Positions 5,642 to 13,020 of a DNA stretch of 64,000 nucleotides are shown here, piece by piece; position 1 is the stretch's first letter; the number at the start of each line of letters is the position of its first letter. Origin of the DNA: Alphaproteobacteria bacterium (GTDB lineage Bacteria; Pseudomonadota; Alphaproteobacteria; JANQMY01); the NCBI GenBank assembly GCA_028289425.1, contig JANQPL010000018.1, positions 248,001 through 312,000 of the forward strand. The letters are read 5' to 3'. Made by a program: the position numbers and the translations under genes. The notes under the pieces are model-generated. The model saw only the letters and a program-made list of their open reading frames with translations. It was not told the origin of the DNA and did no database searches.

Positions 5642-6069
5642 GGCCCAACTCCATCTTCCCGGATGGCATCCCCGCCATCAAACACAGCCCACGCCGCCCG
5701 GCAAAGGATTATGCACGCCCTGAAGCATTTGAGAACCGGCTTCAGAGACCAAACGGGACCAACCGCGCCGGAAGCCCCCATAAAGGTTAACTTAAGAAAA
5801 CCATGCGACGCTTCGCGCCGAACTGGTCAATGTTTTGAACCAATTGGTGCAGGCTTGTATGGTATAAGCTCCCGGACTGCTTAGCGAATCACGCTAAGAT
5901 GAGTTTGGGATCCGCACTGTACACTCCACGATAATAGACCATTCGGTTCAACGCGTTCAGACCATTCGAAATTGCCTATCAGGTCTAAGAAGGCCGGGTA
6001 AGCAATTATTTTTAAAACCCAAATTGAATGTGTCCTGAATTTCTACATGAGGGAAAGGGGGCGCGAAAC
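5642..6069. promoter_or_regulatory. Divergent intergenic region with a 7-bp inverted repeat (5880-5898)
   Basis: This 428-bp gap separates the minus-strand transglycosylase gene from the plus-strand FapF-like gene, so it must carry both promoters. A perfect inverted repeat, CTTAGCG-AATCA-CGCTAAG, lies at 5880-5898 and could be an operator. I see no convincing -35/-10 pair and no gene. The end of the gap contains a strong purine-rich ribosome binding site (GAGGGAAAGGGGG, 6049-6061) that decides the start of the next gene. Confidence 0.4.
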
Positions 6070-7572
6070 GTGTCGATAAGTAGAATAGGTATACGACGAC
6101 CCAAGTGTCTCACACTTAGTCTCGTAGCCGCCGTGGGAATTGGTCTGAGCGCATGTGCAGGCGTTGGGTCCGGCTCTCAAAGCGTTGAAACCGAAACACC
6201 TACCTCCCAGACAAGTTCCACGCGGACGAATGGTTCCGGCGACAGTCTGGCGGTCTTAACGTCCGAACTGAGCGAGCAAAAAGAAGCTCTGAAAGTTCAA
6301 CAAGATCGTATTGCACAATTGGAACAGCGCATTGATGCGCACAGCAGGCTGCAGGCGCAACAAGCCTCGTCGGAGCCCTATGCGGCCCCCGGCCAGGAGA
6401 ATGTGCCGATCTATTCATTGCCTGACCAAAACGGCCTCAAGGCCCGCTACAGCGGAAGCTCGGCTCAGCAAGCAAGCTGGGTGAACCCGGGCTCAGCTGG
6501 CCAATCCGGACCGGCCTATCAGACCGTTGCGGACAATAACGGCAACGGGCAAGGCCGCGAATTTGTAGGTGAACGTCCGCCGGTTGAAGAAGAAGACCGG
6601 CCGCCGGAAATTCTGGCTTTGGCAGACTCAGGGGGTGTTCTTACGCCCAAAGGGGTTCTGACCATCGACCCGGCCATCACCTACTCCAACAGTAACGTCA
6701 GTCAGTTCAGCTTCCGCGGTGTGCAAATCCTGGACGCATTCCTGATTGGTGCGATCGAAGCGAATGAGTCCGATCGTGATTTCGTCTCTGCTTCGCTGGC
6801 GGCACGATACGGTGTGACGGACCGACTTGAAGTATCGGTTCAAGTTCCGGGCGTATACCGTAACGATGACATTGTGGAATCGACGATTTCCGGCGTTACG
6901 GCCTCAACCGCGACGGAAGAGACCACGTTGGAAGCGTTTGGCCTGGGTGATATCGACTTCGGCCTTCAGTATCAGCTGAACAAGCCAAAAGGCGATTGGC
7001 CGTTCTTTGTGGCCAATGTGCGGGCCCGTGCACCGACGGGCGAGGGTCCCTTCGATGTAGAGCGGGACGGCACCTTTGATCCTACCGAGTCGACCACCGG
7101 CTCGGGGTTCTGGACCGTTCAGCCGAGCATCACGGTGATCAAACCGACGGACCCCTTGGTCTATTTCGGCAATGTCAGCTATTTGATAAACATGTCGACC
7201 AGCCCGGCCGCTCCGGTGGCCAATCTTCAAGTGGCTGAAAAGTTTGATCCCGGTAACTCCCTCGGGATTAACTTCGGTGCCGCTCTGGGGATTACGGAGA
7301 AGGTGTCGGCTAGCTTTAGCTACCAGCACTTCTACATCTTCCCGTCCGAGCAGACGTCTACCATTTTCGCTCTGCCGCCCGGACCAGGGCCCTTGCTGGA
7401 ATCGACGGCTGTGAGCCGTACCGGCGACCTGCAAGTGGGGACGCTCAACTTCTCGCTGAACAACCGGTTGAAGCGTGGCTCGGCCAGCCTTCAAGTGGGT
7501 ATCGGCGTGACGGATGACGCCCCGGATGTGGCGATCACGTTTAGACGGCCGTTCAACTTCCGTCTGGACTAA
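6070..7572 (+). CDS. FapF-like outer-membrane beta-barrel transporter with lipobox and coiled coil
   Basis: About 500 residues from a GTG at 6070, chosen because GAGGGAAAGGGGG lies 8 bases upstream. An ATG at 6028 in the same frame has no such site. The N-terminus has a signal ending in a lipobox (LSAC, C29). A Ser/Thr linker is followed by a short coiled coil (about 60-98, ELSEQKEALKVQQDRIAQLEQ), a low-complexity stretch, then a beta-rich domain from about 185 (GVLTPKGVLTIDPAITYS) to the end, like the phenol_MetA_deg-type transporter barrels. Coiled coil plus barrel is the layout of FapF, the exporter of Fap amyloid subunits. It faces the amyloid operon and has its own terminator. An outer-membrane barrel is likely; the Fap role is inferred from neighbours. 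Confidence 0.75.
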   Translation: MSISRIGIRRPKCLTLSLVAAVGIGLSACAGVGSGSQSVETETPTSQTSSTRTNGSGDSLAVLTSELSEQKEALKVQQDRIAQLEQRIDAHSRLQAQQASSEPYAAPGQENVPIYSLPDQNGLKARYSGSSAQQASWVNPGSAGQSGPAYQTVADNNGNGQGREFVGERPPVEEEDRPPEILALADSGGVLTPKGVLTIDPAITYSNSNVSQFSFRGVQILDAFLIGAIEANESDRDFVSASLAARYGVTDRLEVSVQVPGVYRNDDIVESTISGVTASTATEETTLEAFGLGDIDFGLQYQLNKPKGDWPFFVANVRARAPTGEGPFDVERDGTFDPTESTTGSGFWTVQPSITVIKPTDPLVYFGNVSYLINMSTSPAAPVANLQVAEKFDPGNSLGINFGAALGITEKVSASFSYQHFYIFPSEQTSTIFALPPGPGPLLESTAVSRTGDLQVGTLNFSLNNRLKRGSASLQVGIGVTDDAPDVAITFRRPFNFRLD

Positions 7573-7717: not shown

Positions 7718-8485
7718 CTAGAATTGTTGACCCAGCTGGAACAGGACTTGTGAGTGCACCACGCTGGTGATCTTGCTTTCCACCCGTGCCCTGGCAGCCA
7801 TCGCGTCGATCATCGAATAGTTGGCGATGTCCAGGTTGATCACTCGGTTCAACAAAACATTCGAGTTGTTGGTCTCGATGACGGCCATTTGCACGTCAAA
7901 CACACTGCTGCTAGGCGCCGCTGCGGCGGCTGCGCTCGACCCGATTTCCGGGGCGTCCGCTGTTGCCGGGCCGGTACCCGTTGAGAACGACATGGTGTCG
8001 TCCGTCAGGGTTGCCGTTTGATCCATGCCCGTCGAAGCATCCGTCGTCGTTGCCTCGAGTGCCACGCCGTTGTCCGTCACCTGAGAGAGAGAACTCGACG
8101 TGGAAACAGGGGAACCGCCGACCGACGTTTCTATCTTCTGTTCCGTTTGGATCTGCTCACCGGTTTCTTCACGGCGGCGTATGGCGAACTGCGTCTGTAT
8201 CTGGTTTAGACGATCCTGCACGGTCGTTAGGACAGCCGTAGACCGGCGCAAGATCTCTCCATTGACCGATTCGGACACATCCATGCCGATGTTGAATTTC
8301 ACACCATCGACAGTGACAAAACCACCTCGTAGCTCGCCTAGTTCATTGTCGCTCAGCGCTTCTACCGGCTCGCCCATGAGCTCTTCGAGCTCTGTTACTG
8401 CGTGGGCGTTATGGCTCAGTAGGACAGCAGCAGAAAGGGCAACTGCTGCGCCGACCGTCCTTCCCATTTTCAACTCAATACTCAT
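7718..8485 (-). CDS. Secreted accessory protein with double-glycine leader motif (amyloid locus)
   Basis: 255 residues from the ATG at 8483-8485, preceded by GGGGGG at suitable spacing; a GTG at 8494 is a less likely start. A signal peptide ends near SHNAHA. After it comes LSDNELGELRGG (L44 to G55), which looks like the leader of peptides cut by C39 peptidases. The rest is Ser/Thr/Ala-rich with an Ala tract, and ends in a Val/Gln/Phe-rich tail (VVHSQVLFQLGQQF). It lies 32 bp downstream of the C39 peptidase gene and is last in the operon. By position it could stand in for FapA or FapE; I do not recognise a named family. Confidence 0.7.
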   Translation of the reverse strand: MSIELKMGRTVGAAVALSAAVLLSHNAHAVTELEELMGEPVEALSDNELGELRGGFVTVDGVKFNIGMDVSESVNGEILRRSTAVLTTVQDRLNQIQTQFAIRRREETGEQIQTEQKIETSVGGSPVSTSSSLSQVTDNGVALEATTTDASTGMDQTATLTDDTMSFSTGTGPATADAPEIGSSAAAAAAPSSSVFDVQMAVIETNNSNVLLNRVINLDIANYSMIDAMAARARVESKITSVVHSQVLFQLGQQF

Positions 8486-8517
8486 TACCAGCACCCCCCG
8501 AAGTGCCCGCCTGCCCT

Positions 8518-9234
8518 TTAGAACTGGTTCGCCGAAGGCGCCAACACGGTTACGGCTTCCAGGCCGCTCCGATCGATCGCCATTCCCAGATAAGCCTTGC
8601 TTTCAAAAGGCAGGTCGCGTTTCAGGTTAAATTGTGAGCGCGCAAGCCTCGCTTTGTTGTGAATAGCGAAGGCAATGCCACTCCATTCTTTCTCAAACTG
8701 CTCGCGGGTCACCATGCGGGAACCGAGAGCTGGGTCACCCACCACAACATGGGTGTCCGTGATGCCGCGAAGAACCACAAAGTGAGTGTACCCACGCGTC
8801 GTAATCAACGTGATTGTGGGAACGCCAACTTGGCGGAGCTTCTCCAATGGCACACGAAATCCGTCCGAGCGCATGCCAATACCTTGGAGATACCGCTTCA
8901 TGTCTAGAAGCGAGAACCCTTCCCGTCTGATTTTATCTTTATCGCCTGACGCCCACATTTGGTCGAACAGGGCACCTTCAGTGACGGGAGTGTCATAGTG
9001 ATAGGTTAGGAGCGTTGCCAGCGCCGCAGAGCCGCAGCTGAAGTCGTAATTCTGCTTTATGACAGAATCGAACTTCTTTTCCTTCAAGCTCATTACGGTG
9101 ACATTGACAGGAAAAGCGCCGGCAAAGATGCGCGTTTCAACAGCTTGCGCATCCATAGGCTGGGAGAACAGCGCCGCCGCACCGAAAGCGGCCGCAGCAC
9201 AGAAAGAAAGCGTTTTTTTGGAAATCGAAGACAT
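8518..9234 (-). CDS. Periplasmic C39 family peptidase, FapD-like
   Basis: 238 residues. A signal peptide ends near DAQA (residue 31). The C39 papain-fold core follows: nucleophile Cys in QNYDFSCGSAALATLL (C67), His in GYTHFVVLRG (H151) and Asp in VVGDPALG (D167). C39 peptidases normally cut after double-glycine leaders. Unlike the ABC-fused bacteriocin type, this one stands alone and is exported, as FapD is in Pseudomonas amyloid operons. The next gene downstream encodes a protein with an LSxxELxxLRGG motif, an obvious candidate substrate. It is the fourth gene of a five-gene minus-strand operon. Confidence 0.85.
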   Translation of the reverse strand: MSSISKKTLSFCAAAAFGAAALFSQPMDAQAVETRIFAGAFPVNVTVMSLKEKKFDSVIKQNYDFSCGSAALATLLTYHYDTPVTEGALFDQMWASGDKDKIRREGFSLLDMKRYLQGIGMRSDGFRVPLEKLRQVGVPTITLITTRGYTHFVVLRGITDTHVVVGDPALGSRMVTREQFEKEWSGIAFAIHNKARLARSQFNLKRDLPFESKAYLGMAIDRSGLEAVTVLAPSANQF

Positions 9235-9294
9235 TGTGACCTCTAAGAACCGAATCCGTTGTCTCTCTATCTACGCAATCTTTGTGCCTATTCT

Positions 9295-9699
9295 CTAGAA
9301 CAGGTTCACGTTAATCGTCGTGTTCATTTGAACGTTGTTATTGTTCCCCGAAACCACGGCGGCTTGGCCGAATGTGGAATTCGAAAACGCCCCGTCTGTG
9401 ATCAAAGAATGACCGGTATCGCCCACCGACGTATTGCCGGCGTTGTAGGCATCCAGATCACTGTTTTGAACGGTTGTTACAAAATTAAGACCTTCCTTGC
9501 CGCGGGCTTGGTCGTCAGCTTCCGCTGACATTGCCTCGACACCGAATGCGTCCTCCAGCAGATCCCCGTCTTCGTTCAGGAATGCTTGTGGAGCACCCGG
9601 AACATCGTGAGACCGCATGTCGTCCATTGCGAATGCCGAAGCTGCGCCGAACGAAAGAGAAGCACCAAGGGCCAGTCTGCACACAAATCCATACTTCAT
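9295..9699 (-). CDS. Small secreted Asn-rich protein of the amyloid locus
   Basis: 134 residues from the ATG at 9697-9699; a TTG 18 bases upstream is possible but weaker. The signal peptide ends near ASAFA. Residues 57-68 read MSAEADDQARGK and share spacing with the LS...RGG motif of the other accessory protein. The C-terminus (VVSGNNNNVQMNTTINVNLF) alternates Asn/Gln/Thr with Val/Ile, a pattern typical of amyloid strands. It lies between the second subunit gene and the peptidase gene. It may be a minor or nucleating subunit; no family is recognised. Confidence 0.7.
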   Translation of the reverse strand: MKYGFVCRLALGASLSFGAASAFAMDDMRSHDVPGAPQAFLNEDGDLLEDAFGVEAMSAEADDQARGKEGLNFVTTVQNSDLDAYNAGNTSVGDTGHSLITDGAFSNSTFGQAAVVSGNNNNVQMNTTINVNLF

Positions 9700-9797: not shown

Positions 9798-11168
9798 TTA
9801 GAATGCGCCGTTGCCGATGTTGGCGGTAACGGTTTGGCTTTGCTCGGTGACGCCCTGAGAACCAGAGTTTGCCGAGAACTGGCCAAGCGATACGCCATCA
9901 GCCATGCCCATGACATCAGCCGAAGAACTCATGGTCGCTTCGGAGTCGTCGTCAGCGATCACCAGATTGGCTGCCGCAACGTTCAGAACGTTAGCTGCAG
10001 ACATTTCGGTGTTCGAGGCAACTGCATCGGTGTCGAAGAGGATGACAACATCATCCGCTGCGATCGCCGTGCTTTCGCCGGTAGCGAGGGTCTTCGCACC
10101 GTCAGAGTCAGAGTTGTCGATGACGCCCTCTTCCTCAGCAACGTTGCCGCCAGCGACGTTAACACCGTCAAGGCCTTCGCCCCACTCGCTGTTGCCACCG
10201 TCATTGACGATCACAGCTTCGCCGGATGCGTTGTTCTTGTCGATGCCACCTTCGCCAGTGATGTCGCCACCTGCTACGTCGGTGCCTTCACCAGAAGCTG
10301 CGATGGAGCCGTTGCGAGCAACCGTGTTGCCGTCGCCGCCATTGCCGCCTTTGCCTCTGCTGCTAACGTCGTTCGTGCAGACCTGGACCTTACAGTCGTC
10401 ATGCGGAGGAGGACCACCCCGGCCGCCCTGGCCGCCAGCAACCGCCAGGCTACCATGGTCAGCTTGGGCATTGCCGTTGCTGTCCGTGTTAACTTGGCTG
10501 TTGTCGCCAACGTTGACGTTGCCATCGCTGAACTCAGTGTTAGCTTGCGAGTCTTCGCCAGCCGCTACTGCGTTTTCGTTCGCATCGCCACCGCCATTGG
10601 CCGAATTGTGGCCAGCCATGGCCTGTGAGTCGTCGATCAAGCTGTCATCGTTCAACGCCGTATCGCCAGCAACTGCAGATCCGCCAACATCGTTAGCCGC
10701 GATCGAGCTGTTGTCAGCCGTGTTGTTGTCGATAGAGCTATCTTCGCCATTTGCAACATCGTCGTTCAAAGACAGAGCAGAGCCTTCCGTGTGGACGCTG
10801 TTGTCTTCAATCATGTTGTTGCTGCCGAGATTGCCGCGAACATTGCCCGCACCGGTTTGCGGTGCGTTGTTAGCAACACCACCGTTTTGGAAGGTGTCGT
10901 TCAACTCGCCATTCCCATCGGGGTCGAAAGTTGCCGAAGCGTCAATTTCGTTGCCGCTAAGAACGTCGCCGCTCCAGTTTTCTTCGCCGGTCTGCGGAGA
11001 ATTCTCTGCATAGCCGGTTTCAGAAACGTCGGTTTGGGTGTCGTTGCCGGCACCGTTACCGTTCAGCGTGTCATCGAGATCCACAGTGACCGGATCAGCG
11101 AAAGCAGCTGGAGACATTGCCAGGCCAAGAGCGATGACCGAAATGCCCATCAAGTACTTGCTTTTCAT
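9798..11168 (-). CDS. Candidate amyloid fibre subunit with CX4C insert
   Basis: 456 residues with GGAG before the ATG and a signal peptide ending in SPAAFA. The mature chain is rich in Asn, Asp, Ala, Gly and Ser. Two copies of an N-terminal repeat (NGNGxxNDT...NSPQTG and DGNGxxNDT...NNAPQTG) open the protein. The C-terminus, SANSGSQGVTEQSQTVTANI, closely matches the neighbouring paralogue. A Gly-rich insert holds the only two cysteines (C259, C264, CKVQVC). FapB and FapC of Pseudomonas are similarly secreted, repetitive and Asn/Gln-rich, but the sequence repeats here differ. It lies 90 bp downstream of the paralogue. Confidence 0.75.
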   Translation of the reverse strand: MKSKYLMGISVIALGLAMSPAAFADPVTVDLDDTLNGNGAGNDTQTDVSETGYAENSPQTGEENWSGDVLSGNEIDASATFDPDGNGELNDTFQNGGVANNAPQTGAGNVRGNLGSNNMIEDNSVHTEGSALSLNDDVANGEDSSIDNNTADNSSIAANDVGGSAVAGDTALNDDSLIDDSQAMAGHNSANGGGDANENAVAAGEDSQANTEFSDGNVNVGDNSQVNTDSNGNAQADHGSLAVAGGQGGRGGPPPHDDCKVQVCTNDVSSRGKGGNGGDGNTVARNGSIAASGEGTDVAGGDITGEGGIDKNNASGEAVIVNDGGNSEWGEGLDGVNVAGGNVAEEEGVIDNSDSDGAKTLATGESTAIAADDVVILFDTDAVASNTEMSAANVLNVAAANLVIADDDSEATMSSSADVMGMADGVSLGQFSANSGSQGVTEQSQTVTANIGNGAF

Positions 11169-11258: not shown

Positions 11259-12479
11259 TTAGTTAACCGTCAGATTGTCGATGTTTGCCGTAACCGTCTG
11301 GCTCTGCTGCGTGATGGCATTTGCGCCGGAATTTGCAGACATTTGAACCATGACAGAGTCGGTCGCACCGCCTGAGATCGTTGCGTCAGCCGTCAACTCT
11401 GCACTGCTTCCTTCAGAGTAGATGGCGTTGCCGGAACCGATGTTCAGAACGTTGTACGCGTTCAGTTCGGTGTTAGAAGCAACAACGTCCGTTTGGATCT
11501 CCAGGCTTACGTCGTTGATCGACAGAGCGAAACCACCGCTCGTTGCCGTTGCAGCAGCGCCTTCAGACGTGCTGTTGTCGACAATTGCAGCGTCCGTTGC
11601 AATGTCTTCACCTGCAACATTGGTGTCGTTGCTGTCGTTGACGATCACAGCGCTGTCGGTCGCATTGTTCTTGTCGATGCTGCCGCCGGCGATATCGCCA
11701 CCAGCTACGTCTGCACCGTCAGAAGCGGCGATTGACATGTCGTCAGCAACCGTGTGGTCCGATCCAGCGACAGAAACAGAGCCTGCGTCTGCTTGTGCAT
11801 TGCCGTTCGAGCCGGAGTTAGCCATTGCATTTTCGCCAGCGTTTACATTGTAGTCGCTGTCGTTGCTGTTGGCCTGCGAGTCCGTAGCCGTTGCCGTAGC
11901 ATTGCCGCTAGCAGAACTTTCGTTGTTCGCAGCGTTCGTGCCGGAAGCAGCCATCGAATTGTCGATTTCTGACTCGTCCAACGCCAAGTGGCCCGCAACA
12001 GCAGCATCTTCGGAGTCATTGACGCCGATGGAGCTGTTGTTTGCGTAGTTGTTGTCGATCGTGCCGCCGTCATTTGCGACATCGTCCGCACCAGCTGCAG
12101 AGTGGTTAAACTCGTTGCTGTTGTCGGTCAGCGTGTTGTCGCTCAGAGCGTTGCCGCCAACGTTTGCAATGCCCGTTTGCGGAGCATTGTTTGCATCACC
12201 GGTGTTTTGGAAGGTGTCGTTCGCAAGACCGTTGCCATCAGGATCGACTTCTACGTCAATGCTAACGCCATTGTTGCTTGCAACGTCGCCATCGAAGTTG
12301 CCGGAACCCGTTTGCGGTGAATTGATGGCCGTGCCTTCAATATCCGTCTGGGTGTCATTCAGGATACCATTGCCATTTGCGGTATCGTCGGTGCTTACGT
12401 CAATGTCATCAGCAAGAGCCGGCGTCATCGCCAACCCAAGCGCAATAACGGAAGCGCCCACAAGCAAATTGCTTTTCAT
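11259..12479 (-). CDS. Candidate amyloid fibre subunit (Arg-, Cys- and Trp-free)
   Basis: 406 residues from the ATG at 12477-12479, with GGAGAG upstream; a GTG at 12485 is an alternative. The signal peptide ends near TPALA (residue 23). The mature chain is dominated by Asn, Asp, Ala, Ser and Gly, with no Arg, Cys or Trp and almost no Lys, so it is strongly acidic. An imperfect repeat of about 45 residues occurs twice near the N-terminus (PQTG at 55-58 and 100-103). The end, SANSGANAITQQSQTVTANI, is shared with the next gene. It is first in the operon, which fits a major structural subunit. The functional-amyloid role is inferred. Confidence 0.75.
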   Translation of the reverse strand: MKSNLLVGASVIALGLAMTPALADDIDVSTDDTANGNGILNDTQTDIEGTAINSPQTGSGNFDGDVASNNGVSIDVEVDPDGNGLANDTFQNTGDANNAPQTGIANVGGNALSDNTLTDNSNEFNHSAAGADDVANDGGTIDNNYANNSSIGVNDSEDAAVAGHLALDESEIDNSMAASGTNAANNESSASGNATATATDSQANSNDSDYNVNAGENAMANSGSNGNAQADAGSVSVAGSDHTVADDMSIAASDGADVAGGDIAGGSIDKNNATDSAVIVNDSNDTNVAGEDIATDAAIVDNSTSEGAAATATSGGFALSINDVSLEIQTDVVASNTELNAYNVLNIGSGNAIYSEGSSAELTADATISGGATDSVMVQMSANSGANAITQQSQTVTANIDNLTVN

Positions 12480-13020
12480 CGTCACTCTCCAGTTAAGGTT
12501 TTCACTACTGGGGCCCCCCGGTATTTGCCGTTGAGCTACACCAAAGCCTCAGTCATCCGAGTCAGACAATGCTCCCGAAATATGCTTAACGCAAGAAGGT
12601 TTTATGATTAACAAACAAATATTTTGACGGCTTTTTTGTGCCGAATCAGACCGGTTTCTAGACAAAAAAAACAGATTGAGCTTCGTTCTAGTTCTAATAG
12701 CAGAGTTAATATTTAGAGTAGTGACGCGAACACCTAAATGTTTCATCTCGGGTCAGAAGATTCGATAAATCATCTTAACCGGTGAAAATAAAAAAGCAGA
12801 AGTTAACAAATTAAACACCTTGAACTTCATTGATGCGAATCTGTCATTCGCCGGTTTCAGTCCAAGCAGAAATGCAAATATTCCCGGATTATTACTCAAG
12901 GCGCCCACAGATATACTTGGCGCTTAAATATTATGTCACGTGGTCACGCCCACGCTTATGTAGGTGTGTATCAGTGAATGTGAGTGCGGATTGTTCCGAT
13001 GGCGACAGACGGAATCAAAT
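12480..13020. promoter_or_regulatory. AT-rich upstream region of the amyloid operon
   Basis: The gap of about 540 bp between the first fibre-subunit gene and the DUF3237 gene holds no credible coding frame. Much of 12560-12960 is AT-rich with A tracts, unlike the GC-rich genes around it. It should carry the operon promoter on the minus strand and has room for several regulator sites. I could not pick a convincing -10/-35 pair or a sigma-54 site by eye. Confidence 0.4.

Follow-up and report, generated by a model that had tools for sequence, protein, structure and literature searches.

A leader-like motif conserved in the FapE-like neighbours of FapD-related periplasmic C39 peptidases, and its predicted processing

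In the Fap amyloid system of Pseudomonas, the C39 peptidase FapD has to be proteolytically active in the periplasm, and its Cys38Ala substitution abolishes secretion of FapC, as reported by Rouse and colleagues in 2017 (PMC5557850). These authors suggested FapE or FapF as the FapD target on the basis of GG/GA motifs and found Fap proteins to be without canonical C39 sequences; FapE is the only protein from which N-terminal peptides are missing (PMC5557850). Later papers give the substrate as undetermined or think it to be FapE and FapF (PMC6173800, PMC12822426). In the open-access subset of the newer literature we found no mapped FapD cut site; reports elsewhere are possible. Leader recognition has been dissected in the LahT protease, where mutagenesis singled out positions -4, -7 and -12 as key contacts and -3 and -8 as tolerant, and where L-7D strongly impairs cleavage by LahT150 (PMC6363468). 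PCAT1, with A55 and I59 in the groove, offers an equivalent picture (PMC6959990). The idea that FapE is a FapD substrate is not ours; what we add is a specific motif of leader type, which recurs in several related systems.

The window analysed here is a stretch of 64,000 nucleotides of alphaproteobacterial DNA. It contains a locus which, judging from its sequence, belongs to the Fap/FapD type: a FapD-related C39 peptidase is accompanied by a FapF-like barrel and by a pair of repeat proteins (Table 1). The FapF-like gene is convergent with the peptidase operon, and its product is clearly homologous to FapF while scoring below the NCBIfam cut-off (3.6e-41; 141.3 bits against 700). This protein has a lipobox-like LSAC-AG behind a hydrophobic stretch, odd for a beta-barrel and present also in a sister genome (L005). 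The repeat proteins have no match in Pfam or NCBIfam, whose models do not recognise them as FapB/FapC repeats. A second FapD-like locus in the same genome (L021) is more Fap-like, and the protein in its FapE position carries VSDDALADMRGRY.

Table 1. Features of the locus, with positions in the window
Feature	Position	Strand	Basis
FapF-like outer-membrane protein	6028..7572	+	NCBIfam FapF below cut-off
255-aa Sec-exported FapE-like protein, predicted main C39 substrate	7718..8485	-	family hhalign vs FapE
Leader motif LSDNELGELRGG, residues 44-55 of the 255-aa protein	8321..8356	-	FapE-trained matrix
C39 peptidase, FapD-like, with Sec signal peptide, 238 aa	8518..9234	-	Pfam C39, NCBIfam FapD, PDB 6MPZ
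Catalytic codons Cys67, His151, Asp167	9034-9036, 8782-8784, 8734-8736	-	LahT alignment
Groove segment GFSLLDMKRY, residues 106-115	8890..8919	-	aligned to PCAT1 leader-binding groove helix (A55/I59)
Small Sec-exported protein (134 aa), predicted to be a second substrate	9298..9699	-	family alignment
Motif MSAEADDQARGK, residues 57-68 of the 134-aa protein	9496..9531	-	family matrix
Repeat-rich exported protein, probable fibre subunit	9798..11168	-	position and composition (role inferred)
Further exported protein rich in repeats, probable fibre subunit	11259..12485	-	without family match

The peptidase is assigned to the C39 family by Pfam (4.3e-23; 82 bits against a cut-off of 22) and by its Cys-His-Asp triad. 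It matches NCBIfam FapD with 1.2e-49, yet with 168.6 bits remains below the curated cut-off of 330. Among solved structures the closest in sequence is PDB 6MPZ (5.3e-11), a crystal structure of the LahT protease together with a leader peptide, and the peptidase residues listed in a preliminary description of this DNA (C67, H151 and D167) align with C27, H101 and D117 of that protein. They are invariant in all 46 aligned peptidases. The GFSLLDMKRY segment is near-invariant across Fap, window-type and FilB-like peptidases (F107, S108, L110 and D111 in 46/46, K/R113 in 45/46), with L109 and K113 of the window protein as alignment counterparts of PCAT1 A55 and I59. In both groove signature and catalytic residues, the window peptidase and true FapD are alike, and the signature sets the window peptidase apart from the C39 domains of PCAT/AMS transporters. 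AlphaFold runs on two-row alignments (window plus L005) gave pLDDT values of 32 for the peptidase and 42 for the 255-aa protein and were not used.

Both genes flanking the peptidase gene on the same strand encode proteins matching [LM]S-x7-RG[GK], at equal spacing and at the positions given in the preliminary description. These are the only two matches among the 355 open reading frames of at least 60 residues in the window, where 0.31 would be expected from shuffles. Shuffling the proteins singly produced 18 hits (255-aa protein) and 15 hits (134-aa protein) per 20,000, and never both together. As a motif, the pattern proved too narrow, the Ser at -11 being unconserved; what is conserved reads [LIVM]-x-D-x-E-[LM]-x3-R-G-[RKG], with F/Y as the next residue in the downstream protein. 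Of the leader ends proposed at the outset (GG or GA/GK-like), GG and GA are known, as is GS, whereas GK is not established.

About 58 FapD-like peptidases were compared, obtained by running the FapD model against genomes of the class (337) and of the phylum (398); their surroundings span mostly 10-18 kb (shorter at contig ends), and N-termini are approximate since gene starts followed simple ORF rules. The loci fall into three types: Fap proper (n=22), the window type (n=23 intact) and FilB-like (n=12). One decayed window-type locus (L095), in which the peptidase is truncated and the FapE-like partner survives only as a C-terminal remnant, was excluded. Directly downstream of the peptidase gene lies a gene for a Sec-exported FapE-like protein with [LIV]xDxE[LM]xxxRG[RKG][FY], and this motif is present in 22/22 Fap loci, canonical Pseudomonas FapE included, and in 23/23 window-type loci. 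NCBIfam confirms two of the Pseudomonas-type downstream proteins as FapE (8.3e-104 and 2.1e-105); its FapE model has no match to the 255-aa protein of the window or of the sister, and sequence searches with the window protein found no plasmid match and no useful PDB match. The relationship emerges from family comparison: hhalign aligns FapE with the window downstream family at E 2.5e-8, in a stretch of 38 columns that has the motif at its centre, and a profile of the latter matches a canonical FapE locus (E 6.9e-7).

The predictive value of the motif can be gauged from a matrix trained on the 19 distinct motifs of the 22 Fap loci. Applied to the unseen window-type neighbours, it picked out the RG[GT]F site in 20 of 23 loci when residues 1-160 were scanned (with p 0.053 in L028); in the others (L024, L031 and L087) the site lies beyond residue 160. 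With this Fap-only matrix LSDNELGELRGG scores 21.3, a value reached by 0/300 shuffles. RG is invariant in the 23 window-type downstream homologues, and the 255-aa proteins of window and sister, 66% identical overall, share 28 consecutive identical residues from E32 to V59. Profiles of the two FapE-like families detected the window type in 9 of the 337 class genomes and gave 17 and 21 genomes of the 398 from the phylum. All strong hits adjoin an independently found FapD-like gene, and no family member away from a peptidase was found in the 337 + 398 sampled genomes; as the profiles were built from the same loci, this co-occurrence indicates that there are no orphans and is not an independent discovery. 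Conservation of the motif in homologues, which the preliminary description had put forward as its check, extends far beyond the genus, and in every case a FapD-like C39 peptidase of the periplasm is encoded next to it.

The register of the motif is that of a double-glycine leader, with L-12, E-8, L-7, a hydrophobic residue at -4, G-2 and G-1, plus R-3. Among 63 pooled motifs, distinct or aligned, G-2 occurs in 63, L/M-7 in 62 and R-3 in 56. The window system has in common with LahT, PCAT1 and ComA the C39 family (by sequence), the catalytic triad and the register L-12/E-8/L-7/hydrophobic-4/G-2. Unlike the PCAT/AMS transporters, its peptidase comes without an ABC transporter and is predicted to be periplasmic after Sec export; unlike PCAT/AMS leaders, the motif has the extra R-3 and often R/K at -1. 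With the FapD-FapE pair of Pseudomonas it shares a periplasmic C39 gene directly upstream of a FapE-type gene, the same leader-like motif and a FapF channel, and it differs in having G rather than R/K at -1, an extra small substrate-like gene upstream and FapF on the opposite strand; some relatives also have a large unrelated pro-segment. LSDNELGELRGG has all six leader positions (L-12, E-8, L-7, hydrophobic -4, G-2 and a small residue at -1). The 255-aa protein is a strong candidate substrate, predicted to be cut before F56; the true scissile bond could sit one residue off this site.

The conserved motif, the FapD-like C39 neighbour and the double-glycine register together point to processing after Sec export, and processing in the periplasm is the best reading of these sequence data. 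We think it likely that this is a Fap-type amyloid secretion system whose Sec-exported partner proteins have a leader of double-glycine type cut off by the periplasmic C39 peptidase. After export by Sec and trimming by signal peptidase, as the signal peptides suggest, the 255-aa FapE-like protein would still carry a pro-segment of about 26 residues in the periplasm. Positions -12 to -4 (LSDNELGEL) are predicted to dock as a short helix in a groove that includes GFSLLDMKRY, and Cys67 would cut after RGG, or after RG[RK] in canonical FapE; one may speculate that K113/R114 of the peptidase pair with D-10/E-8 of the leader. The FapF-like channel would then receive the freed domain, now competent for export, as a subunit associated with the fibre; the FapF linker of some relatives carries the motif as well. 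A periplasmic amyloid peptidase would thus appear to use the type of leader tag known from bacteriocin exporters, the logic of bacteriocin export being transferred to the periplasm. A conserved motif in every FapE-like partner turns the question of what FapD cuts into one with a testable answer at one exact site.

The common R/K at -1 in the FapE-like family differs from known C39 substrates with their narrow site and counts against cleavage. One could envision that the peptidase binds the motif as a docking site and leaves it uncut, much as in RTX transporters, where C39-like domains act as chaperones; a chaperone role of such domains is documented (PMC5557850). We regard this as unlikely, given the invariance of the catalytic residues in 46/46 peptidases and the loss of secretion with FapD Cys38Ala in Pseudomonas (PMC5557850). 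The most suggestive evidence for cutting over mere binding comes from the segment before the motif. It ranges freely in length, from about 15 to 330 residues, and also in content, with a SPOR domain (Pfam 3.8e-8) in the L031 protein and a lipobox-like SLSGC in that of L027, a freedom that makes sense if the segment is cut off. Cleavage in these proteins would free the conserved domain from cell wall or membrane. A point against the predicted site is that the published FapE data miss about the first 70 residues, somewhat past the motif at about residue 40 (PMC5557850); a long tryptic peptide could be the reason why the gap reaches beyond the motif.

The motif recurs in the small protein encoded upstream of the peptidase in all intact window-type loci except L027 (22/23). 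In the family alignment G-2 is found in 22/22 sequences, R-3 in 17/22 and L/M-7 in 21/22, and the sole exception at -7 is the window itself: MSAEADDQARGK has Asp at -7 and Lys at -1 and so lacks the combination of Leu -7 and a small -1. In its C-terminal part this family is similar to both the downstream and the FapE family, so that upstream and downstream proteins, being distantly related there, are not fully independent cases. We consider the 134-aa protein to be probably a smaller FapE-like protein and a second substrate, poorer in this genome and a weaker candidate than the 255-aa protein. There is a considerable chance, somewhat short of even, that the 255-aa protein is the only substrate and that the 134-aa motif is here a decayed remnant: Asp at -7 is the very replacement that cripples LahT150 cleavage (PMC6363468), and MSAEADDQARGK reaches only p 0.31 with the FapE matrix. 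However, RG is kept in both window and sister, the sister's copy SVEGELGDTRGR retains L-7, and with an own-family matrix built without the window and sister sequences MSAEADDQARGK has p 0.003. Either outcome is compatible with the explanation preferred for the 255-aa protein. In L083 the genes for the small protein, the peptidase and the FapE-like protein are duplicated in tandem.

FapF is the other target proposed in the literature. The linker between its coiled coil and barrel contains the motif in L022, L023 and L026 (scores 12.0, 21.0 and 18.5; 0/100 shuffles reach these values). That FapF might be the main target and the FapE-like motif secondary nevertheless seems very unlikely: the motif was not found in the window FapF (scan p 0.38) or in the Pseudomonas FapF linkers examined, whereas the FapE-like motif is universal. 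These absences rule FapF out as a universal target and make it at most a lineage-specific extra one. A weaker leader-type motif was seen in the FapF linkers of L029, L030 and L086-L088. Fibre subunits were scanned as well, and no comparable motif was found in FapC (best p 0.04 of 22) or in the first and second repeat proteins of the window (p 0.52 and p 0.12).

A related arrangement is found in the FilB-FilA (DUF6160) pair of a putative pilus system, where FilB is a related periplasmic C39 peptidase that also matches FapD. In both systems the peptidase has exported proteins beside it in which the signal peptide is followed by a leader-like motif. FilB-like loci differ from the window in having Q/G at -1, the motif protein upstream only and a FapF-like gene directly after the peptidase. 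Their upstream protein, DUF6160/FilA-like in L098, L099 and L103, displays [LM][STD]DxxLxxVxG[QG] without R-3 (e.g. MDDAALSGVTGQ), a form recognised by inspection and a loose pattern, with only part of the sites significant under the FapE matrix.

These recurrences bear on the possibility that the motif is the edge of a conserved FapE domain, serving folding or FapF binding independently of the peptidase. Conservation does run on past the motif ([FY]...FG, within the hhalign region), so the motif borders a conserved domain and part of its conservation may be structural. As a full account this seems quite unlikely, for the register recurs in the upstream small proteins and in several FapF linkers (21.0 in L023 and 18.5 in L026) and, minus R-3, in FilA/DUF6160 proteins beside FilB-type peptidases, and the sequences that follow the recurring motifs differ. 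Returning to processing, it is tempting to speculate, and we lean slightly towards this wider view, that the periplasmic C39 peptidases (FapD, window type and FilB) serve one maturation pathway, in which leader-bearing, Sec-exported surface-fibre proteins, often anchored by SPOR or lipid, would be released to license secretion, the linker of the FapF gate being also trimmed in some lineages. Near the FilB-type peptidase of L103 there are three FilA/DUF6160-like open reading frames, each with a leader-like motif ending in GQ.
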